The notes under the pieces are model-generated. The model saw only the letters and a list, made by a program, of their open reading frames with translations. It did not search any database and was not told the origin of the DNA. From positions 25,616,489 to 25,680,488 of the forward strand of contig NC_069124.1 of assembly GCF_026914265.1 (NCBI RefSeq): DNA of 64,000 bases. The letters are read 5' to 3'. Made by a program: the position numbers and the translations under genes. Origin of the DNA: Mya arenaria. Lineage: Eukaryota; Mollusca; Bivalvia; Myida; Myidae. This document shows, piece after piece, positions 33,184 to 64,000 of this stretch (its first letter is position 1; each line of letters starts with the position of its first letter).

Positions 33184-35598
33184 ATGAGAGAAAGAGAAAG
33201 AGAAAGAGAAAGAAGGAGCGAGGGGAGGAGGATGAGAAGTGGGGAAAAGGGAGGGGGAGAGATGATAGGAATCAGAGACGAAGGATGGGACTAAATACAT
33301 AAAAGGCAGGGGAGAAAATATGTTGTAATAGGACTGAAAGAGACAAAGGAGAGAGTAAGGGGTGGCGGGGAGGGGGAGATGAAAGAGTGAGAGAATGATT
33401 GGAGGATGAGGAGTGAAGATTGAATCATATGGAGAGAGAGGCAGAGGGAGAAGAGTAACGGTGTGAGATACGATGGACAGGGGAGGCGGTGAAAGGGGAG
33501 GGAAAGAGAGAAAAAAGAGAGGCGCTGAGAGGGGAGAGAAAGAGAGAAAAAAGAGAGGCGGTGAGAGGGAAGGGAAAGAGAGAAAAAAGAGAGGCGCTGA
33601 GAGGAGAGAGAGAGAGAGAAAAAAGAGAGGCGGTGAGAGGGGAGGGAAAGAGAGGCGTTGAGAGGGGAGGGAAAGAGAGGCGGTGAGACGGAAGGGAAAG
33701 AGAGAAAAAAGCGATGCGGTGAGAGGGGAGGGAAAGAGAGAAAAAAGAGAGGCGGTGAGACGGAAGGGAAAGAGAGTAAAAAGAGAGGCGGTGAGAGGGG
33801 GGGAGAGAGAAAAAAGAGAGGCGGTGAGACGGAAGGGAAAGAGAGTAAAAAGAGAGGCGGTGAGAGGGAAGGGAAAGAGGGAAGAAAAAGAGGCGATGAG
33901 AGGGAAGGAAAAAAGAGAAAAAAAGAAAGGCGATGAGAGGGGAGGGAAAGAGATGAGCGAGGCGGTGAGAGGGGAGGGAAAGAGATGAGCGAGGCGGTGA
34001 GAGGGGAGGGAAAGAGATGATCGAGGCGATGAGAGGGACGGAAAAAAGAGAAAAAAAGAAAAGCGATGAGAGGAAAGGAAAAGAGAGAAGAAAGAGAGGC
34101 GGTGAGAGGGGAGGGAAAGAGATGAGCGAGGTGGTGAGAGGGAAGGGAAAGAGAGAAAAGAGAGGCGTTGAGAGGGGGAGGGAAAGAGAGAAGAAAGAGA
34201 GGCGGTGAGAGGGAAGGAAAAAAGACAAAACAGAAAGGCAATGAGAGGGAAGGGAAAGAGAGAAGAAAGAGAGGCGGTGAGAGGGAAGGAAAAAAGACAA
34301 AACAGAAAGGCAATGAGAGGGAAGGGAAAGAGAGAAGAAAGAGAGGCGGTGAGAGGGAATGGAAAGAGATGAGCGAGGCGGTGAGAGGGGAGAGAAAGAG
34401 ATGAGCGAGGCGGTGAGAGGGGAGGGAAAGAGATGATCGAGGCGGTGAGAGGGAAGGGAAAGAGAGAAAAGAGAGGCGGTGACAGGGAAGGGAAAGAGAG
34501 AAAAAAGAGAGGCGGTGTGAGGGGAGGGGAAGGGAGAAAAAAGAGAGGCGGTGAGAGGGGGGGAGAAAGAGAGAAAAAAAGAGGGGCGGTGAGACGGAAG
34601 GGAAAGAGAGTAAAAAGAGAGGCGGTGAGAGGGGAGGGAAAGAGAGAAAAAAGGCGATGAGAGGGGAGGGAAAGAGGGAAAAAAGAGGCGGTTAGAGGTA
34701 AGGGAAAGAGAGAAAAAAGAGAGGCGGTGAGGGGGGGATAGAGAGGCGGTGAGAGGGGAGTAAAAGAGAAAAGAGAGGCGGTGAGAGGGGAGGGCAAGAG
34801 GGAAGAAAGAGAGGTGGTGACAGGAGAGGGAAAAGAGAGGCGGTGAGAGGGGAGAGAAAGAGGGAAGAAAGAGAGGTGGTGGCAGGAGAGGGAAAGAGGG
34901 AAAAGAGAGGCGGTGAGAGGGGAGGGAAAGAGAGAAAAAAAGAGGCGGTGAGAGGGGAGGGAAGGAGAGAAAAAAGAGAGGCGGTGAGAGGGGAGGGAAA
35001 GAGGGAAGAAAAAGAGGCGTTGAGAGGGGAGGGAAAGAGAGAAGAAGGAGAGGCGTTGAGAGGGGAGGGAAAGAGAGAAGAAGGAGAGGCGGTGAGAGGG
35101 AAGGAAAAAAGACAAAAAAGAAAGGCAATGGGAGGGAAGGGTAAGAGAGAAGAAAGAGAGGCGGTGAGAGGGGAGGGAAAGAGATGAGCGAGGTGGTGAG
35201 AGGGAAGGGAAAGAGAGAAAAGAGAGGCGTTGAGAGGGGAGGGAAAGAGAGAAGGAAGAGAGGCGGTGAGAGGGAAGGAAAAAAAACAAAAAAGAAAGGC
35301 AATGAGAGGGAAGGGAAAGAGAGAAGAAAGAGAGGCGGTGAGAGGGGATGGAAAGAGATGAGCGAGGCGGTGAGAGGGGAGGGAAAGAGATGAGCGAGGC
35401 GGTGAGAGGGGAGGGAAAGAGATGATCGAGGCGGTGAGAGGGAAGGGAAAGAGAGAAAAGAGAGGCGGTGACAGGGAAGGGAAAGAGAGAAGAAAGAGGG
35501 GCTATGAGAGGGAAGGGAAAGAGAGAAAAATGAGAGGCGGTGAGAGGGAAGGAAAAGAGAGAAAAATGATAGGCGGTTAGAGGGAAAGGGATGGAGTG
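33184..35598. repeat. Polypurine minisatellite 2
   Basis: About 2.4 kb of G/A-rich plus strand with units of roughly 36 bp around GAGAGGCGGTGAGAGGGGAG and GGAAAGAGAGAAAAAA. It could form triplex (H-DNA). Minus-strand frames of 723 and 855 codons through it are artefacts of a strand lacking A and G. The tract begins where the shared flank of copy B stops. Confidence 0.93.
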
Positions 35599-43327: not shown

Positions 43328-46300
43328 GCGTAAAACAAGACAAGCCTCAGTGATTTTTTAGAACCCTTTTTGGGGCCTAGATTTGGGCCCATTCCCCTTC
43401 TTAAAACTATATATTTTTCCCACGCCCAGGTAAAAAAAATCCCCTTTTAATTTTACATTTTTTTTAGGAGCATTGACCTCTAAACATTTAGGAATTGTAA
43501 CAATATAGTGCCATTCATGAATATGTTGATAAGTTTGTTGAATAAAGGGTTTGAAAACATGTCGAACATAAGATCAATCATGTTAGTATTTTCCCCTTTT
43601 GCCAAAGGATGCTACTTTTCCCCTATTAAAGAGCCCCGCCACCATTCCTGTAAAAGTGAAAAGAAACACTGAGTTTATAACTTATTTAGTATAGCTGTGA
43701 CTATCCTTCCTTAATAAAAAGGAGATTTCTCAATTTGTGATTTGGTATAATGGTGGGAGAACCTGAGTTCAATACCTGACCTCATCATACAGTATTACAG
43801 TACTGAAGGACATTAAATGTCACTAGTAGCTCCCTTTCCATGCACTCGGCATTAGAGTTGTACCAGGTGATTATGAGTACTGGTTGAAAACCAGCAAAAT
43901 TGTCTCAAGTTTATCAACTATGCACCATAAAGAGCCAAGAGATCTGTTCATAAAGAGCTCTTGGACCTACAATTTCCTGCATCTCACTCTGCTTCATGAA
44001 CTCAGCTTACATCAAAGGTGGAAATTTTGGTTTCTTCATGGTTCTGGAATATCCCAACAGTTGACACTAAAATTACCAACAGTTCCCTGTTTTTCATTGC
44101 AGGCCTTGTTTCCACTGGTAAATGTAGCCCTGTTGGACTACACATTGGAGTTTCTATGTTCCGGGGGTGTACAGGAAGTGTTTGTTCTCTGTTGTCACCA
44201 GGCACAGCAGGTTAAAGAACACCTCAGGTAAATTCACTAATTGTATTATTAAATAAAGAAATATGACAGGATAAATGGACAACACTTAAAGGGCTGCAAA
44301 GCACATGATCATTGTGCTAAAATATGCTGTTAAGTTTGATACAAAGTATGTATAATATCATTAAAAATCACAATATCTCCATTATAATGTTTACCAATAA
44401 ATGTTAAGTTTAGGTGAACTAAAACATATGGATACATAAATAGATACAGAAGGAGCCAATTTAATGTAACTTGAACCATAATCTACAGTAATGTTAAGTT
44501 GTGAACCTTGTAAGAATAATATCTTTGGGGTGCTTTGTTGTGAAATTATCTCACCTTGTTTACCTTTTAGCTCACCTGAGCACGAAGCGCTCAAGGTGAG
44601 CTATTGTGATCGCCCTGTGTCCGTCGTCCGTCGTCAACAATTTGACTGTTAACACTCTAGAGGTCACAATTTGGGCACTATCTTAATGAAACTTGGTCAG
44701 AATGTTACCCTCAATAAAATCTTGGATGAGTTCGATATTGGGTCATCTGGGGTTAAAAACTAGGTCACCAAGTCAAATTAAAGGAAAAGCTTGTTAACAC
44801 TATAGAGGTCACATTTATGACTGTATCTTCAGGAAACTTGGTCAGAATGTTAATATTAATACTCTCTAGGTCAAGTTTGATTCTGGGTCATGTGCGGTCA
44901 AAAACTAGGTCACCAGGTCAAATTGAAGGAAAATCTTGTTAACACTCTAGAGGTCTCATTTATGACTGTATCTTCATGAAAGTAGGTCAGAATGTTTATA
45001 TTAGTAATCTCTAAGTCAACTTTAAATCTGGGTCATGTGTGGTCAAAAACTAGGTCACCAGGTCAAATCATAGGAAAAGCTTGTTAACACTCTAGAGGTC
45101 ACATTTATAAAGGTTTCTTCATGAAAGTTGGTCAGAATGTTTACATAAATTATCTCTAGGTCAAGTTTAAAACTGGGTCATGTGTGGTCAAAAACTAGGT
45201 CACAAGGTCAAATCATAGGAAAAGCTTGTTAGCACTCTAGAGGTCACATTTATGACTGTATCATCGGGAATCTTGGTCAGAATGTTTATATTGATTACCT
45301 CTAGGCCAAGTTCGAATCTGGGTCATGTGCAGTCAAAAACTAGGTCACCAGGTCAAATTTAAGAAAAAGCTTGTTAACACTCTAGAGGTCACATTTATAA
45401 CTGTATCTTAATGACAGTTGGTCAGAGTGTTTATATTAGTAATCTCTAAGTCAAGTTTAAATCTAGGTCAATTGTGGTCAAAAACTAGGTCATTAGGTCA
45501 AATCATAGGAAAAGCTTGTTAGCACTCTAGAGGTGACATTTATGACTGTATGTTCATGAAACTTAGAATGTTTATATTGATTAGCTCTAGGCCAAATTCG
45601 AATCTGGATCATATGCGGTCAAAAACTAGGTCACCAGGTCAAATTTAAGGAAAAGCTTGTTAACACTCTAGAGGTCACATTTATAAATGTTTCTTTATGA
45701 AAGTTGGTCAGAATGTTTATATTAATAATCTCTAAATCAAGTTCGAATCTGGGTCATGTAAGGTCAAAATCTAGGTCATTAGGTCAAATCATAGGAAAAG
45801 CTTGTTAGCACTCTAGAGGTCACATTTATGACTGTATGTCCATGAAACTTAGTCAGAATGTATATATTGATTAGCTCTAGTTTTTATAATGTATTCAATT
45901 TTATCCAAGCCATGACTATTCAATTTCATAGAAATTATTCTGGGTAATAATTATTCTGTATATGACTTTTCTGTTTGATAATTATTCAATGTAATGTAAC
46001 CGGGTATACCATGTGTATATAGTGACACTTATAATGTCTCGCTATAGAGCTAGCTTTTATAGCAACGTGGTAGAGTGTCCACCTGCAGAGCAACAGGTCG
46101 TGGGTTCGAAGCCCGACAGGTGCACATAGCAATTTGTGCAGTCATTGCAAATTGACCTTTGTCTCCGAAATTCGAGGACGAATTTCAAAATGGAGGGGGA
46201 ATGTGTAACTGGTTATATGATGTGTATATAGCGGCACTTATACTGTCTCACTATGGAGCTAGCTTTTATAGCGACGAGGTATTGTCCGCCTGCAGAGTGA

Positions 46301-49300
46301 GAGGTCGTGGGTTCGAACCCCGACAGGTGCACATAGCAATTTGTGCAGTCTGTTACAGTTATATTCATGCTCAAATACCACAATGCAGATGTTCACGCTG
46401 GAATGAAAAAACCTCACCCGTGAATGTTGTGCCGATCATGTCGGAGGGATGTCTATCCATGGGTGACGCCCTGCGTGATATTGACGCCAAGAATCTCATT
46501 CGGAGTGACTTCATCCTCATATATGGAGATTTGGTTTCCAACATCAAACTGCAGTCACTCGTGGAAGAACACAAGTAGGGGCTTTATCTCTGTTTTTTGT
46601 TTTCCATGGGAAAATATTGGTCTATTCTACACTATTTCGTTGGGCTTGAAATACAAATGTAGGCGACCATCGATTGTATTTGGTCATAATCGATCATAAA
46701 TTCAACCGGCTAGTTGTTTGTCTGCTTCTTTCTCTTGTTATATGCGTTCGGTTTATTTCCAGCAGTTTTCTCCTTTGAATTCATTTTAACATTCAGAAGT
46801 GTTCAGATGTTATCGTTAACAATATGCCTGAAAGCAACAACAACACTTATTAACTTCAAGCATACACATAGCAAAGGCATTGTTTGAGTTATTGTACAAG
46901 ATTAAAACTGCAATAAGATATTGTCAAAAACTGATTGTACTATAGATAACCAGTTATATGCTAAAACCTTAGTACTCATTCGCATGAATCTATTTTATAC
47001 TATTTCCAGACAGCGTAAGGAAAAAGACAAATCTGCCATCATGACTATGGTGTTTCGACAGGTGCCCCCAGGTCACGCGAGCAGGTGCCCCGAAGATGAC
47101 ATCATAATTGCCGTTGACAACCAGACACACAACGTCATTCACTACCAGCGGTTGGCAGAGTCAAAAAGCAAGGGATTTGAGTTTCCTGTGGTGAATATCG
47201 ATGCGTCTTTCAATACAAAATTTATTAAACAAGTTTCCCTTAAATTTATAAAATCAGCTAAGGCGATTTTTTTATCAATTTTGGAAATTAGTTTTTATTT
47301 TAATTGCTTATTAGGAATGCTAAATAGATAAAACATTCCTTTAAAGCCAACACATTTATATATGCTATTAATTTATTATGTAACTTAAAAATTTATATCG
47401 CTAGTTATACATAAAAAATATGATGAGTCTTCAGAAAAATCAGAAAAATCAGTATATTATTCTGGATGCAGAGAAAAATGAACACAAAACAATATAAATG
47501 ATATTTCCATATCGTTTAATCAATCAAAATTATTGTTCTAGGAGGTGATGACAGACCATCGTGATGTTCAGATTCGTTACGACCTGCTAGACTCAAACAT
47601 CAGTATCTGTTCACCACAAGTGCCGCAGCTGTTTACAGACAATTTCGATTACGAGACACGCGACAGCTTTGTACGAGGGATACTGATTAATGAAGAGGTA
47701 GTAAAAAAACTAAAGCAGTGTTGTTTTTTTCCATTTTTAAGGGAATTGTGGATTGGCCCTTTGATAGGTTAAACATAGGGTAGTTTTAGCAAAAAGGGGA
47801 AAAATACTAACCTGATCCATATAATGTTCAACTTGTTGTCAAACCTTTTATTGAACCTATTAACATATTCATGAATTACACTTAATTGCTTCATTAATTT
47901 TGTTTAATGTTAAGAGGTCAAAACAAAATTATTGTTTTTCACTGGGATTTATTTGCGGGGTGGAGGGGAATGGGGCCAAGAAAAAAAACACTGAAATGCA
48001 AACAAATATGTTTTTGCACCTATTCTGCTTCTCCAAGTGAATGTAAATTGGATAATGTGATGTATTGTTTGTATAAAATGATTCAAATTTTATACAAATT
48101 TTAAGAGAATTGCTTAATACATGTTTTTATTGTTGAATTCCAGAAAGACTTCTTTTAAGACAAAACAATCCTCAACATTTAATCTTGGATTAAAACCAGA
48201 AGTCATGACTAGGAACAGGCTCAAGTCTGAGTTCATGCTCAAAGAAATTTTTTTTTTCTACAGATGATGAAATTTGCTCATTTTAATTACTAAATTGTTC
48301 AATTATATACATTTATTCTGTAAAACAATTGGAATAAAGATGATTCTTTTTAATTTAATACAAGACTTTTTCTGAAACTTGACTCTAAGTTGAGACTGTC
48401 CTTAATCATTGGCCGTGGAGGTCATGTTTATTTATGATGAAGAGAGCTTATAATCATTGGGGCAGAACTGTCATTTCACTGATCTTTTTGGATGTACAGT
48501 AGAAACTCACTAGACCAGAACTCCACAAAACCGGAATCCTCGGGATACCGGACTTTTTTCAGAGTCCCGGTTTTCCCCTTCTATTTTCAATGTAAAAAAA
48601 TCCCTACAAAACCGGAACCCCGGAATTTCAGATACTGGACAAAAATCGAGAAAATTTGTTAGTTGTCAACGAAATTTTACCTCACAAAACCGACATATAT
48701 TTGTTCCAACATGTCAAAATGATTTGTTGTATTAGGAATTCGCGAATCACGTGTCACTTTGTTTTGACAGCTGGTGCATCGTTAAATATTGCACCTGTGA
48801 TGTTGTTATAACTCGATAATCGATAATGATGATTGCGATGTGGATTGACTGCCGCACGATAATCAAACTTGTGAAAAGAAAATTGACTGAAACATAAACT
48901 TGTTTGTTGCAGAAAAAGTAGAAACGGTTATTAAGTGATCAGTTTGGAGGGTTGTTTTATCTAAAGACTTCTATGATTGAATCAAATTAGAGCAGTGCGT
49001 TAATTAAACTATCAAACATACTCAATATGCATTAAATCACAGATAATTGGATAATTTGTTTGTTTGTTACTCAAATCAAGAACTAAACTGATTGGTGATG
49101 AAGTGATCATTTTTGCGAGTTCTTTTATTTTAAGACTTGGAAAAAAAGATGATTATAAAAACGCAAAAAATGTTTAATTATGTTTATCACTTTTGCATGT
49201 GCTTTAATCTAATTGTCTCAACCTCTGTCTAAACATAATAAATGTTATCTTTATGTGTTTTCATTTTATTCCAGTTTTCAACTTCCCTTTAAAGGTTAAC

Positions 49301-52300: not shown

Positions 52301-55300
52301 AAGACCATTATCGCAACAGTATGTAGTATTGGTATGTTAAACAGGATAAAGGCAGTCGAGTTTTTCACACCTTCGAGTACAACTGACAAAAAATATTTTG
52401 ACAGTGCCCAACTTTGCTTTTTTATATGCAAGTTTAAATATTGTTCAATTCAATTTATTATTCAAAATAATATTGAATAACTTTAATCGAAAAATATTTT
52501 TGTTTAAATTATAAACGTCTTACGATATACCGTATCCCGATCTTCAACTGCCGTTTTAACTCCTATATACTCGATCAATATGACGCGAGTTACATCCCTT
52601 TCTACATAAATCTAAACAAACTCTCGGCTTGAAATCGACCTCAGAAAAAAAGTTAAAAAAATTGTTACTGGGTATTATACGCAGGCATTTTTTTGCATCG
52701 AAATCTGAGGGAATAAAGGGCGTCTAATACCCAGTCATTTACGGTAAATCTGTGTGAGTGCAGTGCAGCTTTAATGTGTTGGCTTCAGAAACTTGTCAAA
52801 ACACTCAGATCCTATACTTTTAATTTTAAGTTAAATCTAAGGTTATTATTAAATAAGGCCCCTGCTTAGGCAATGAATGCTTTTATTAATCTGTGTACGG
52901 TAGCAACAATTGATTTGAAAAATAATATTTTATAACATTACAATATAATTATTTCAGGTAATAATGTGACAATCGAGGGATCATACCTCTGGAATAATGT
53001 CACTGTAGAAGACAACTGTGTTCTGAACACGGCCCTGGTCTGTGACAATGTTACTTTGTACGAGGGCGTCACCCTGTGTCCTGGATGTGTCCTCTCAAAA
53101 GATGTAAGTATTGGGTACATTATGTTGTATGATTATGTCTATACTAAATCTACTGTGTACTGGACACTGCGCTGGTCTGTGACAATGTTACTTTGTACAA
53201 GGGCGTCACACTGTGTCCTGGATGTGTCCTCTCGAAAGATGCAAGTATAGGTTTTGTAATAAGGAATGTATGGGTAATATGATTATGTCAAAAGTTGATC
53301 AACTATGTAGTACAAAGCACTGACAGATGCATTCTTGTTTAATATGGTAGAAATTTCAACTTGGCAAGAACTATATTATTGTTCAAGATACATGAAACAT
53401 GGTACAGATATTACCAGTGACAATGATAACATGTGTAGCAAGGACCACAACTCTTGCTTTAATAATTTTAAAGTTATTCCCCTTATTTGACTGAACAAAA
53501 ACTGATAAGCGTTGGCATCGGCTCTGCAGCAAATGTTTTAGTTTGCCCGTCAAATAATATGGATGTGTTGTTTTCATGTATGTCTCAAAAACACTATAGT
53601 CATAATTTGAAAAATAATAGGAACTAAATTCAAAACATGTGTGCCTCATAAAGTACAGTTTATCTATTCAAGGTATCAATGGGTCCGAATGTCAAGCTCC
53701 ATTTGGGCACCATAGCTATGTGTGTCCACCCTGCAAGATGATTTCAGGGATTTTAACAAATTTAAAGGCGCACAATATAGGTTGATGCAATGAAATAAAT
53801 TTATGTTTAATGCATTACCATGTTTTACTCGTATGACATTATTGATTGAAACAATTGAGAGTTTGTAATTTTTGTGTACAGATAAAAAAAAGTCTTTATA
53901 ACTGTTTTATTTTAATTAATAAGTTCATGGTCACAATTCCAAAGTTAAAAAAGCGCCAAATTATCACTATTATTTTTTTTATCTGTACACAAATCATGTG
54001 CTATTTTTTACCGTAAAAGTCAAATGAGTTAATGCATTAAAACATGTTTTTTATTTGCAACCTATATTTGGGCATTTAATGTTAGAACTGTTTTCCACAT
54101 GTTCCAGGTCTCAGTGGGTCCCAAGGTAGAGCTCCAGTCGGGCACCGTAGCTGTGTCCAGTCTGCAGGATGATTTTGGGGATGAAACTGACGCCCCTGAT
54201 GCCGGCACTGACGCAGGTAGGGCTGACTACTGGTTGAAATACGCACAGGCTTGCAAATTAGCGCAAACCCACAAATAAGCACAACCAACATTTTGGCGTG
54301 TTGGATAAATAGACAAATTGCATAATTAAATTGAGATGGACAACACTAATCAGTCATTGAATTGGAAATGATTAAAAGTATATTTCCATAAAAAACATCG
54401 GTATGATAATAACACAATATGTATTCCAACACTAATGTGCATTCCAAGATCCAAAATTTGTCCAACATATTGAATGACAAAAGCGAAAACAAAAACTGTT
54501 TTCTTTCAAAATTTATGGCAGATGTTTGGGTATATGATATTTGTCAACACCTAGAGAATTTGTTACATATGTAAACAAAAAATCTGTTGAAGCAATATGG
54601 TTAATTATAGGAGAATGCATTGTTTTAGAGCATTTAGCAGTCAATGCAATGGCTTACTGTATATGATACAGGAAGATTTGATGTGGGACATTATTGTGTC
54701 CGCCTAGCTGTTTGACTTCATGTATTGGATTCCCTTTTCTTGTCTCAGCTTTTGGCAGCCAAGGTCATGGTTTTGTGTACAAAGATGATGGGGAGGATAG
54801 CGATGTTGAGGACATAACACATCGGATGTGGGGTGTTAACGTGGAAACAGAGTCAAGTGATGAAGAAGATAGTGTTGGAAGCGATGACAGCGACTCTCAG
54901 CCAGGCAGTCTACCACCTGATGGTAAAGTTCTGGCTTGTGTACTTTAAGCCGAGTTGTTTTTCTGAGGGAAAAAAAGGTATTGTGATAGCCTTGGTGTCA
55001 ACAGGAGTGGTGGCCTTGTTGTTGTGTAAAAACTTATTTTGTCTTAACCAAAATAATATTCATTATATTCCCATGAAAGTTTAACAATGTTACAAGTGAC
55101 AATCAATGACCATATGTCTAGCGTTAATGAGACTGGAGTTATTCCCCTTTTTTGAGGTAGGAAAAAACAGTCGATGAGCATTAAATAAATATTGTCTCAC
55201 TTGAGCGAAACAGTGCATCTTGTCAGCCCAAGGATAAACTGTCATCTGAGGCTTTCACAGATTTCATTGAACTAAACAGAACTATCAACCAGGTTAATAT

Positions 55301-58300: not shown

Positions 58301-60994
58301 ACATGTTTACACAGACTATTCACACATGTGTGTCAAGGCCTATAACTCTGGCTATAATAAATGCAGAGTTATGCCCTTTTTTCGATTTTGAAAATGACAG
58401 AAGAGCATTGGGGTTCAATTTGTGGCTCTCTTGTTAATACATGTATTTATAACCATTTCAGAGTTTGACCAGACACATTGCTGTACTGAGAAACTACATT
58501 CGAAACGAGGAATCCCAGTCTCAGTGTCTGGTGGCTATAGAGGTATGGTATTCCAGTCCGACGGTCTGGTGGCAATAAATGAATGGTATTCCAATCTGGG
58601 TGTTTCAGTCCCAGTGTCTGACGGCTATAGAATTATGAAATTCTAGTAACTGACAGCTATAGAGTTAGGAAATTCCAGTCCCAGTGTCTGACGACTATAT
58701 GGTTATGAAATTCCAGTCCCAGTGTCTGACGACTATATGGTTATGAAATTCCAGTCCCAGTGTCTGACGACTATATAGTTATAAAATTCCAGTCCCAGTG
58801 TCTGATGGCTATATAGTTATGAAATTCCAATCCCAGTGTCTGATGGCTGTATAGTTATGAAATTTCAGTCCCAGTGTCTGATGGCTATATTGTTATGAAA
58901 TTCCAATCCCAGTGTCTGATGGCTATATAGTTATGAAATTTCAGTCCCAGTGTCTGATGGCTATATAGTTATGAAATTCCAATCCCAGTGTCTGAAAGCT
59001 ATATAGTTATGAAATTTCAGTCCCAGTGTCTGACTGCTATATGGTTTTGAAATTCCAGTCCCAGTGTCTGAAAGCTATATAGTTATAAAATTCCAGTCTC
59101 AGTGTCTGATGGCCATATAGTTTAGAAATTCCAGTCCCAGTGTCTGACAGCTATGTAGTTATAAAATTCCAGTCTCAGTGTCTGACAGATATAGAGCTAT
59201 GAAATTCCAGTCTTAGTGTCTGAAGGCTATAGAGTTTTGAAATTCCAGTCCCAGTGTCTGAAAGCTATATCGTTATAAAATTCCAGTCTCAGTTTCTGCC
59301 AAATAGAGCAATGAAATTCCAGTCTTCGTGTCTGAAGGCTATAAAGTTATGAAATTCCAGTCTTAGTAATTCCAGTCTCAGTGTTTGTTATAGAGTTACA
59401 AAGTTCCTGTCCCAGTGTCTGACGGCTATGCAGTTATGAAATTCCAGTCTCAGTGTCTGACGGCTATATAGTTATGAAATTCCAGTCCCAGTGTCTGACA
59501 GCTATGTAGTTATGAAATTCAAGTCCAGTGTCTGACAATGTTTATTTAAGAGCTGTGAAATTCCAGTCTTAGTGGCTGAAGGCTATAGAGTTATGAAATT
59601 CCAGTTTCAATGTCTGACAGATATAGAGCTATAAAAATCCAGTCTTAGTGTCTGGCAGCTACAGAGTTATGGCATAACTTTCGTTGATATGCACTATGCT
59701 CTGTAGAGGTATAAGTGGTTGTATTCCATAGAGTAATCAATTCATGGAAAAACAAGATGGTTAATTTTTTAACATTACCAAATATGTTCATTACATTACC
59801 TGCTGTGTATGTATTTGCTAAAGCATAATTGCATCAGTTCCAAATTAATCACATTTTACCTGTAACTATTTAATGTAAAAGCTTATGCTTCACCAACATG
59901 CCTGGGTGGTTCGGCATTTAGCCTTGTCATCTGTGTCTTTCAGGTGTTTGGAGGCTCCAGCTCTGCCCACATGCCTCTGGTGACCAAGATCATCCACTTC
60001 CTGTACGAAGAGGACCTCCTTCTGGAGTCATCAATCCTCAGATGGTATAAAGCAGGGCCACAGAACTTGCCGGATAGCGATGACGAAGATTTCGAGGAAC
60101 GAGATAATAAACATGCAGAGATACGTTTACAGGTTCGCTTCTTCTTTTATTACATAACTTGATCATTATAGAGACATTTTCAGTTTAAAAGTCACAAAAG
60201 GTCTCACACATTCAAACATATACTTTTCCAAAGGATTCGTCATGGTATTGTGATAACCTGGGTGTCGTTGTTGGCTGCAGTGACATGGAGTGAAAACTTC
60301 AATCTTTGCTTAACACTGAAACTGTTCCTGTTATTTGAATTAAACTTTGTGCACATGTTGCAAGAAGCAATATGCACATCTAGAGCACAGCATAACTCTG
60401 GCATTTTTTGCTGAAATACAAGAGATGAGCATTGGTATGATCAGCAGCGCTCTTGGTAACAGACATGTGTTCAGGAGTATTCAACTATCACATGAAATGT
60501 TATAGGAACATTATTCAGAATATAGGGTTCAGTTTGGAGCTGTACTCGTTAATACCACAGTTATAGCCGTTGACTTTATCAAAGCCCAATATAGTACTAT
60601 AAGAAGGTTTGGAAACTCATGGAGCAAGTCGAGGTATTTTCATTGCTTTGGCTTGACCTTAGCTGGTATTCTTAACACATGTAAAGTCATTTCTTAACTT
60701 AAGTGGCATTCTTGTCTTGGAGGGCCCTTACTAAAGGGACACATGACACGATATGCATAGCCTTATCTCGTTTGGCATGGTGTCAATTGGTCGACGTTTA
60801 TCCTTAAATGACTCTTATCCAATCAAATTATTTAAATGTGCAAATTAGCAAAAGATTACCTGTAGACGACTTATCAAAGATTAATACATTTAGCTGTTGA
60901 AATTTTTTAACACTCGTGTAAAATCTTTCAGGTGGCGCCACTTATAAAGTGGCTGGAAGAAGCTGACGAGGAATCTGAAGATGACGAGGACTGA
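41912..60994 (+). CDS. EIF2B5: Translation initiation factor eIF2B subunit epsilon
   Basis: Catalytic subunit of the eIF2B complex, which exchanges GDP for GTP on eIF2 in the cytosol and is the target of the integrated stress response. Sixteen exons: 41912-42037, 44103-44227, 46389-46574, 47010-47190, 47542-47697, 49461-49546, 50580-50702, 51400-51500, 52958-53103, 54108-54216, 54749-54922, 55686-55782, 56455-56575, 58462-58542, 59944-60132, 60932-60994. All phases agree and give 687 aa, against 721 in human. Nucleotidyltransferase-like domain about residues 20-260 ([39 protein letters not shown]), with the conserved NF in [18 protein letters not shown]; left-handed beta-helix about 300-440 ([18 protein letters not shown]); acidic linker about 450-500; C-terminal W2/HEAT domain from about 515, ending [15 protein letters not shown]. 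Start chosen for its strong context and homology. Confidence 0.96.
42452..43090. mobile_element. TIR element in EIF2B5 intron 1
   Basis: The left CACAGGTGTTTGTCACATTA and the right end, inverted (CACAGGTGCTCGTCACATTG), pair for about 40 bp and continue through CCTGGATACAGT. AT-rich interior with no open frame. Confidence 0.7.
43292..43324. repeat. (TG)n microsatellite
   Basis: About 16 TG units in EIF2B5 intron 1. Confidence 0.95.
43362..43640 (+). repeat. Interspersed repeat, inverted partner of 47741-47995
   Basis: Shares, in order, GGGCCCATTCCCCTTCTT-like sequence, GACCTCTAAACATT, TTCATGAATATGTTGATA and GTTAGTATTTTCCCCTTTTG with the reverse complement of 47741-47995. Unknown family, no coding sequence. 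Confidence 0.7.
43738..43880 (+). repeat. Possible tRNA-derived SINE fragment
   Basis: TGGTATAATGGT (A-box-like) and GAGTTCAATACC (degenerate B box) are 30 nt apart, followed by a GATTATGAGTACTGGTTGAA body. Weak; could be chance. Confidence 0.35.
44567..45890 (+). mobile_element. Tandem-repeat element with AGCTCACCTGAGC hairpin head
   Basis: It begins with a short palindrome (AGCTCACCTGAGCACGAAGC and its near complement CTCAAGGTGAGCT), followed by nine units of about 145 bp anchored by CACTCTAGAGGTCACATTTA and AAAACTAGGTCACCAGGTCA. Non-coding. A head with an internal tandem array is known for several bivalve MITE-like families. Lies in EIF2B5 intron 2. Confidence 0.75.
45995..46357 (+). mobile_element. 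LTR-type fossil: two 155-bp repeats around 54 bp, tRNA-like inside each
   Basis: Two direct repeats, 45995-46149 and 46204-46357, both start TGTAAC; the second ends GTTACA. Between them only 54 bp remain, with a TTCGAGGACGAATTTC stretch and a purine run TGGAGGGGGA just before the second repeat, as in a Ty3-like 3' end and polypurine tract. Each repeat holds a tRNA-like block with A box TAGCAACGTGGTAGAG and B box GGTTCGAA. The repeats differ by roughly 15 percent, so it is old. No coding capacity remains. No target duplication is clear. Resembles a miniature LTR element; it ends 31 bp before EIF2B5 exon 3. Confidence 0.55.
47741..47995 (-). repeat. Interspersed repeat, inverted partner of 43362-43640
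   Basis: Reverse complement of the intron 1 copy. It lies in EIF2B5 intron 5, so the pair brackets exons 2 to 5. Confidence 0.7.
48497..49418. mobile_element. Pogo/Tigger-like MITE
   Basis: TIRs CAGTAGAAACTCACTAGACC and, inverted, GGTTTAGTGAGTTTCTAATG, flanked by TA on both sides; many internal ACCGGAAT/AAACCGG motifs. The CAGTAGAAACTC start resembles pogo-type Tc1/mariner ends. No transposase frame in 922 bp. In EIF2B5 intron 5. Confidence 0.65.
49690..49980. repeat. Repeat rich in TTGCCCGAA / TTCGGGCAA
   Basis: Several inverted copies of ACTTGCCCGAAA and CGGGCAAC in about 290 bp of intron 6. Family not recognised. Confidence 0.4.
51745..52775. mobile_element. Foldback element (CTGCACTCTCACAG family) carrying a nested MITE
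   Basis: The outer element shows GATCTTTTGTCAGCAGTCTT and ends TGTGAGTGCAGTGCAGCTTT. Its right arm is split at a TA by the element 51965-52744. In EIF2B5 intron 8. Confidence 0.7.
51965..52744. mobile_element. Nested MITE, TACCGTAAATGACTGGGTAT family
   Basis: TIRs CCGTAAATGACTGGGTATAA and the inverted AATACCCAGTCATTTACGG, TA on both sides, 780 bp, with inner copies of GGTATTAGACGC and GGTATTATACGCAGG. TA duplications fit a Tc1/mariner-type origin. Confidence 0.72.
53152..53240 (+). pseudogene. Partial copy of EIF2B5 exon 9
   Basis: The last 89 bases of exon 9 and the start of its intron are repeated in tandem with a 137-bp period. The copy keeps the exon frame, most differences from exon 9 are at silent positions, and it ends in GAT|GCAAGT where exon 9 has GAT|GTAAGT. 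No acceptor was seen, so it is probably not spliced as an exon. Confidence 0.75.
53370..53560. repeat. Interspersed repeat, copy in intron 9
   Basis: Contains AACTCTTGCTTTAATAATTT and TTATTCCCCTTATTTGACTG. The pattern (a TTGGTACACATGTT-like stretch, AACTCTGGCTTTAATAAAT, GAGTTATGCCC) recurs at 55060-55230, 55890-56160, 58230-58440 and 60230-60480, all in EIF2B5 introns. Confidence 0.55.
53673..53750 (+). pseudogene. Decayed copy of EIF2B5 exon 10
   Basis: TCAATGGGTCCGAATGTCAA...GGGCACCATAGCT lines up with exon 10 (TCAGTGGGTCCCAAGGTAGA...GGGCACCGTAGCT), keeping an AG before it. It has lost the frame near its end and runs into a stop; about 435 bp upstream of the real exon. Confidence 0.75.
53761..54080. 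mobile_element. MITE (AAAGGGGCACAATATAGG family) in EIF2B5 intron 9
   Basis: TTTAAAGGCGCACAATATAG at the left and CCTATATTTGGGCATTTAA at the right are inverted. Ends 27 bp before exon 10. Same family as the BIR intron elements. Confidence 0.7.
55300..55400 (-). repeat. tRNA-derived SINE remnant
   Basis: The minus strand reads TTAGCGCACTTGCTTCTGAC, CAAGG and then a B-box-like GCTTTGATTCCCGGCC. Typical tRNA-type SINE head; no tRNA gene structure is preserved. Confidence 0.5.
58543..59690 (+). repeat. Exon-derived 38-bp minisatellite in EIF2B5 intron 14
   Basis: About 29 units of 38 bp, consensus TTCCAGTCCCAGTGTCTGAC then GGCTATAGAGTTATGAAA. The unit aligns to the last 30 bases of exon 14 (CAGTCTCAGTGTCTG, GGCTATAGAG) plus its donor GTATGG. 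Most units have T in place of the donor's first G. Confidence 0.9.
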
Positions 60995-62389: not shown

Positions 62390-64000
62390 TTGAACAAGAG
62401 CTGTCACAGTATGTGACGTATGCCCCCGAATGTGACATTGACCTATGAACAAGGTCAGTACATGAAAAGTTGATCTTGCCTTTACGTGTCAAATACATAT
62501 GGCAAGTTTTTTTAAATTGCCTCTAAACATAAGAAAATACCACCCATACTTGACAACCTACACTTATGTCCTTATAAGCAGCATTCCATTGTGAATAAAC
62601 ACTAAGTGTGACCTTGACCTTTGAGGTAGGGACATGGGTCTTGCACGTGACATGTCGTCTTGGTATGTCGGACACATGTGGCAAGTCATTTTAAAATCTG
62701 TCCATACAAGAGAAATTTACAGCCCGGACATGACAACCTATACTCTATGTCCTTATATATGCAGCATTCCATTGAGAATAAATACCCAAGTGTAACCTTG
62801 ACCTTTGAGGTAGGGACACGGGTCTTGCATGTGACACGTCGTCTTGTTATGTGGAACACATGAGGCAAGTTATTTTAAAATCTGTTCATACAAGGGAGAG
62901 TTACAGCCTGGACATGACAACCTATACTCTATGTTCTTATATGCAGCACTCTGTTGTGAATAAACACCTAAGTGTGACCTTGACCTTAGAGGTAGGGACA
63001 CGGGTCTTGCATGCGACATGTCGTCTTGGTATGTCAGACACATGTGGCAAGTCATTTTAAAATCTGTCCATACAAGAGAAAGTTACAGCCCGGACACGAC
63101 AACCTATACTTTATGTCCTTATATATGCAGCATTCCATTGAGAATAAACACCCAAGAGTGACCTTGACCTTAGAGGTAGGGACACGGGTCTTGCATGCGA
63201 CACGTCGTCTAGGTATGTGGAACACATGTGGCAAGTTATTTTAAAATCTGTCCATACAAGGGAAAGTTACAGCCCGGACATGACAACCTATACACTATGT
63301 CCTATATGCAGCACTCCATTGTGAATAAAACATTTAAGTGTGACCTTGACCTAAGAGGTAGGGACACGGGTCTTGCACGCGACAAGTCATTTTAAAATCT
63401 GTCCATACAAGGGAAAGTTACAGCCCGGACACGACAACTTATACTCTATGTCCTATATGCAGCGCACCATTGTGAATAAACACTAAGTGTGACCTTGACC
63501 TTAGAGGTAGGGACACGGGTCTTGCACACGACACGTCGTCTTGGTATGTGGAATGCAAGTGGCAAGTCATTTTTAAATCTGTCCATACAAGGGAAAGTTA
63601 CAGCCCGGACACGACAACCTATACTCTATGTCCTCATATGCAGCACTCCATTGTGAATAAACACTAAGTGTGACCTTGACCTTAGAGGTAGGGATACGGG
63701 TCTTGCACGCGACACGTCGCTTTGGTATGAGGAACACATGTGGCAAGTTATTTTAAAATCTGTCCATACAAGGGAAAGTTACAGCCCGGACACGACAACC
63801 TATACTCTATGTCCTTATATGCAGCACTCCATTGTGAATAAACACTAAGTGTGACCTTGACCTTAGAGATAGGGACAAGGGTCTTGCATGCGACACGTTG
63901 TCTTGGTATGTGGAACACATGTGGCAAGTTATTTTAAAATCTGTGCATACAAGGAAACGTTACAGCCTGGACACGACAACCTATACTCTATGACCTATAT
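62390..64000 (+). mobile_element. Tandem-repeat element, 182-bp unit, open at window end
   Basis: Head AACAAGAGCTGTCACAGTAT, then about eight units anchored by TGACCTTGACCTTAGAGGTA, ACGGGTCTTGCA and ATTTTAAAATCTGTCCATAC. Spacing is about 182 bp, with two shorter units (about 159 and 171). Short open frames in it are not genes. Confidence 0.8.

Follow-up and report, generated by a model that had tools for sequence, protein, structure and literature searches.

The EIF2B5 gene of the clam Mya arenaria carries, directly behind its exon 14, a minisatellite whose 38-bp unit is built from the end of that exon and its splice donor, and the exon end itself forms the first unit of the array. The window, that is the whole stretch of DNA analysed, comprises 64,000 nucleotides of contig NC_069124.1 (positions 25,616,489 to 25,680,488). 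Very probably the tail of the exon was duplicated, the duplicate was amplified, its donor was lost early and the resulting array became inert intron filler.

EIF2B5 lies on the + strand of the window, and its spliced model includes 16 exons and 15 GT-AG introns with an uninterrupted frame of 687 residues. Exon boundaries were placed by hand, guided by the reading frame, the GT and AG dinucleotides and the human protein. The product matches human eIF2B-epsilon over residues 7-686 (E 1.4e-175), and the Pfam domains PF25084 and PF02020 score above their cut-offs. This full-length match, with the LbH and W2 domains, identifies the gene as an EIF2B5 orthologue; the intact 16-exon model and the human match support an earlier note on this DNA, which had named the gene and numbered the exon. 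The W2 domain (PF02020) scores 40.2 bits for exons 14 and 15 jointly, against a cut-off of 30, and the NTP-transferase fragment submitted to Pfam scores 18.4, under the cut-off of 21.2. Exon 14 (58462..58542, + strand) comprises 81 nt, is in phase 0 at both ends and is defined by the spliced model, the W2 match and the human alignment. It is followed by an intron of 1,401 bases and by exon 15 (59944..60132, + strand), placed by the spliced model. Other repeats occur in the region. Upstream of EIF2B5 (window 33483-35584), TRF detected a minisatellite with about 60 copies of a purine-rich 36-bp unit; it also detected an array of 145-bp tandem units in intron 2 (44647-45880) and tandem units of 181-184 bp downstream of the gene (62551-64000), up to the window end. 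Also in intron 2, minus-strand frames at 45986-46388 encode alike short peptides at adjacent places, which suggests a small repeated element.

TRF describes the intron 14 array with a 38-bp period, 27.8 copies and 79% matches. A wrap-around alignment using the exon end as unit 1 resolves it into 30 units, the exon unit and 29 copies, besides which a 14-bp partial unit sits after copy 2. Copy 2 and this fragment were separated by hand before counting, and the last partial row, row 31, was excluded. The alignment confirms the minisatellite and the figure of about 29 copies beside the true exon that the earlier note had proposed. The seed unit (58516..58553, + strand) consists of the last 27 bases of exon 14 and the first 11 bases of the intron, which start with the donor GTATGG; the proposed make-up of coding exon end, donor and intron thus stands, with 27 exon bases and not 30. 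Copy 2 (58554..58591, + strand) keeps the exon state at four columns that are changed in nearly all other copies, and has GA at the donor position. It is followed by the partial unit (58592..58605, + strand), defined by the unit alignment, and by the body of the array, copies 3-29 (58606..59639, + strand). The last copy, copy 30 (59640..59677, + strand), shares the G of the exon at column 16 and at column 33, has the donor sequence TTATGG, and continues as TTATGGCATAAC into the intron beyond the array. Ending near 59677, the array fills most of intron 14, 1,135 bases out of 1,401. With its 30 units of 38 bp, exon included, it is a tandem array in the 10-100 bp range of unit length, and it starts within the exon and covers the donor at 58543. 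The unit length is not a multiple of 3. Translation continued past the end of exon 14 would run into a stop 11 codons into the intron, so that an extended exon 14 would be truncated.

We compared each exon, with 30 bp on either side, to the window by blastn. Exon 14 gave 24 non-self matches, with a best E-value of 4e-12 among the four matches listed. Of the other 15 exons, 13 gave none, and exons 9 and 10 gave one each; this control used provisional exon boundaries, and the exon 16 query covered that exon partly. The contrast between 24 matches and zero or one shows that the repeat is not a product of chance.

The distribution of variants within the array indicates how it may have grown. Exon states at columns 16, 28, 33 or 34 are restricted to the edge copies, copy 2 (four of the four) and copy 30 (two of the four). 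The inner copies have derived states in common, and some are identical (copy 5 to copy 6, and copy 8 to copy 12). This arrangement, exon-like at the edges and derived or identical inside, points to growth from within, after the end of the exon had been duplicated in tandem.

None of the 29 copies has GT at donor positions +1 and +2: 24 have TT, three CT, one CA and one GA, so that +1 is not G in 28 copies. The earlier claim that GTATGG had become TTATGA in most copies is borne out for the loss of GT, which affects 29 of 29, and not for the exact hexamer, which is found at +1 to +6 in 14 of 29. The earlier note had named donor bases no more altered than the other unit positions as counting against its reading, and this largely holds. 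The columns differing from the exon in most copies are +1 (97%), +7 (97%), column 16 (93%) and +6 (93%). When changes were counted by parsimony on a neighbour-joining tree of the units, whose resolution is weak, +1 and +2 each received two, and the exonic columns averaged 2.15. Since other columns changed as much and the donor shows no excess of change events, its loss mainly reflects one founder change that was amplified. Donor loss in the array alone does not show selection, and we did not accept it as proof of selection given this founder effect. The G to T change at +1 left a GT one base upstream of the donor position in 23 of the 29 copies, in poor context.

Donor strength was scored with a metazoan donor matrix. 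The true donor, GAG/GTATGG (58543..58548, + strand), scores 3.50 bits and ranks first among the 136 GT sites of intron 14; it scores 4.64 with a matrix derived from the 14 other donors of EIF2B5. The best of the 115 GT sites in the array reaches -0.49 (-0.494), and none comes within 1 bit of the true donor. The 15 donors of the gene span -0.06 to 7.71, and the weakest, those of exons 15, 5 and 7 (-0.06 to 0.27), are near the highest-scoring array site; use of a site is thus possible despite a low score. The 14 other introns contain 0.64 non-donor GT sites per kb that score at least as high as the true donor; in the array there are none against 0.72 expected, which is not significant. For sites of that strength, a depleted density of donor-like sites was accordingly set aside.

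EIF2B5 contains two further partial exon copies, both in intron 9. A single tandem copy of the last 89 bases of exon 9, its donor and intron sequence is located at 53152..53300 (+ strand), with a gapped intronic part; positions 53015-53114 and 53152-53251 are 91% identical over 100 bp, beyond which the alignment extends with gaps. The donor GTAAGT is GCAAGT in the copy. This duplication is independent of the exon 14 array. A copy of the start of exon 10 (53667-53751, 78%) contains a 4-base insertion, and its acceptor has changed from CAG to AAG, with the AG kept. Three of the 16 exons of EIF2B5 therefore have a partial copy in the window.

Selection against competing donors might have removed GT from these duplicates, the array having grown only once its founder was silenced, a reading that we regard as possible but rather doubtful. 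In its favor, no copy has kept GT in place, and it disappeared through distinct substitutions in three lineages, with +1 changed in the founder of copies 3-30, and +2 changed in copy 2 and, to C, in the exon 9 duplicate. If changes were random, the joint chance would be 0.38 x (0.10 to 0.34) x 0.17 = 0.007-0.022, a post hoc estimate on just three events whose range depends on the number of founder changes. Moreover, none of the 115 array GT sites scores at least -0.49 against about eight expected from the 14 other introns, a comparison in which the copies are not independent. On the other hand, positions +6, +7 and column 16 differ from the exon about as often as +1 does, the donor columns are without an excess of change events, and most copies retain the weak upstream GT. 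The exon 9 copy is possibly alive, as GC splice donors can work, and the exon 10 copy retained the AG of its acceptor. Donor loss in the exon 14 copies together with that in the exon 9 copy hints at selection against extra donors, but the estimate of chance is weak.

A broader proposal is that duplication of an exon tail along with its donor recurs in this genome, as in exons 14 and 9 of this one gene, that selection silences the copied donors before an array can grow, and that a donor-dead, frame-breaking array could be copied into an essential exon by gene conversion. We consider this improbable. For comparison, a second coding copy was found near none of 12 short-exon kinase matches, over about 1.1 kb on each side; these 12 were hand-picked from 133 matches, a sample too small to call EIF2B5 special. 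One of the kinase loci (L061, 1363-2387) harbors a 62-bp minisatellite of about 15 copies, located about 20 bp past the apparent donor of the kinase exon. The matches listed there lie outside the coding match, and the array does not look exon-built. Kinase matches with equal or nearly equal scores, in open frames of 920-924 residues, were observed at ten places of the clam's own genome (on C2, C7, C8, C11, C13, C14 and C16), as if these frames were carried by a multicopy or mobile unit.

The array might instead modulate the splicing of EIF2B5 according to its copy number, through decoy acceptors, CTGAC motifs or intron length. By analogy with human ABCA7, where the length of a VNTR is reported to track both reduced expression and skipping of the exon that follows (PMC5954066), such an effect is conceivable, yet it seems unlikely here. 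The array does contain 13 branch-like CTGAC motifs, born of changes at columns 16 and 17, and 19 exact occurrences of TTCCAG; the earlier note was correct in placing this acceptor-like site in the array, but not in every copy. However, the TTCCAG sites are pyrimidine-poor (mean fraction 0.46, maximum 0.65), while 12 of the 15 EIF2B5 acceptors have fractions of 0.53-0.88 and that of exon 15 is good (0.76). No good acceptor lies near the CTGAC motifs. A 751-nt part of the array, folded as RNA, is ordinary in stability (z -0.96, with four of 20 shuffles at least as stable), and a special RNA structure was rejected on this basis. Judged by its sequence, the array is best read as inert filler of the intron, the first donor being spliced normally, and it probably does little to EIF2B5.

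The direction of descent, from exon to repeat, follows from two observations. The exon 14 tail belongs to the W2 domain and aligns without gaps to human eIF2B-epsilon, between the RNYI and AIE.F stretches. Furthermore, the unit was found only here. A DNA search of the clam's own genome (1,216,080,610 bases in 18 contigs) with the unit returned 12 matches, all inside this array. A pattern search allowing up to three mismatches gave 23 forward matches, all at this locus and including the exon unit, and none in reverse orientation, and the reversed control pattern gave zero matches in the same genome. These searches skip very common words and score only the best candidates, and within those limits the unit was not found elsewhere in the 1.2-Gb genome, nor was a dispersed satellite family with the unit at many unlinked loci. 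The earlier note had regarded the exon as the first unit, and had reserved the opposite direction for the case that the unit recurred at unrelated loci; the ungapped human alignment and the occurrence at the EIF2B5 locus alone support its view that the exon seeded the repeat. The converse, in which EIF2B5 captured an already existing repeat that then served as the end of the exon, is logically conceivable and nothing beyond that; it is extremely improbable and was rejected because conservation of the tail extends to human and those searches found the unit at no other locus. As read from the DNA, the anatomy of the array, its origin from the exon, the loss of GT and, at this search depth, the uniqueness of the unit are firm.

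Descent from the exon would have proceeded as follows. A 38-bp stretch over the 3' end of exon 14, with 27 coding bases, the donor and a few intron bases, would have been duplicated in tandem, and the duplicate amplified within intron 14 to 29 extra copies, perhaps by slippage or unequal exchange. A founder with the G to T change at +1 may be ancestral to nearly all downstream copies, and copy 2 would have lost its donor separately, at +2. The first copy presumably stays the real exon end, and splicing at its donor would still yield the right protein. The array would now be largely inert filler in the intron, without an added donor as strong as the first. We infer the mechanism of amplification, the splicing at the first donor and the near-neutrality of the array.

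The array is a minisatellite with a known ancestor, a conserved coding exon, and the order and direction of change in it are therefore readable. It allows donor loss to be studied in duplicates of a splice junction. Should donor silencing prove general for exon-tail duplications, it would make the cost of surplus splice sites measurable in an animal genome.

Our search found no paper on a tandem repeat in EIF2B5 of a mollusc; most of the subscription literature was outside that search, and prior publication is possible. Turri et al. reportedly described, in 1995, the minisatellite of IFI6 (6-16), with repeat units that hold splice donor sequence. The clam array resembles the IFI6 minisatellite in its donor-bearing units. 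In IFI6, according to PMC4526556, two downstream repeat units act as donors, whereas the downstream clam copies have lost theirs and, with GT in register in none of the 29, are not predicted to provide alternative donors of that type. Another parallel is the 25-bp VNTR in intron 18 of human ABCA7, which PMC5954066 places directly next to exon 18, donor included. Transcripts retaining one VNTR unit amount to about 2%, on our reading of PMC5954066, and the length of the VNTR is reported there to correlate with exon 19 skipping and lower expression. Both arrays have short units directly after an exon, donor included, in tens of copies and with a unit length that is not a multiple of 3; the ABCA7 unit, however, begins at the GT donor, whereas the clam unit has 27 coding bases and no GT is kept. 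In the potato RdRp gene, an intron was gained via tandem duplication over an intron-exon boundary (PMC4974935). The clam duplication likewise crosses an exon-intron boundary, but it is without sign of a new intron, and its duplicate was amplified and lost its donor. For human paralogs, PMC2812944 likewise describes internal tandem repeats located at exon-intron boundaries; those concern recently duplicated paralogs and show a bias to long units, whereas the clam case is one gene with a 38-bp unit. To call an exon-born satellite unusual, as had been done for this locus, is fair, but precedents exist: the donor of exon 18 is part of the VNTR in ABCA7 (PMC5954066). The clam array belongs to a known kind, from which it differs by the coding bases in its unit, as compared with ABCA7, and by having no downstream donor in place.
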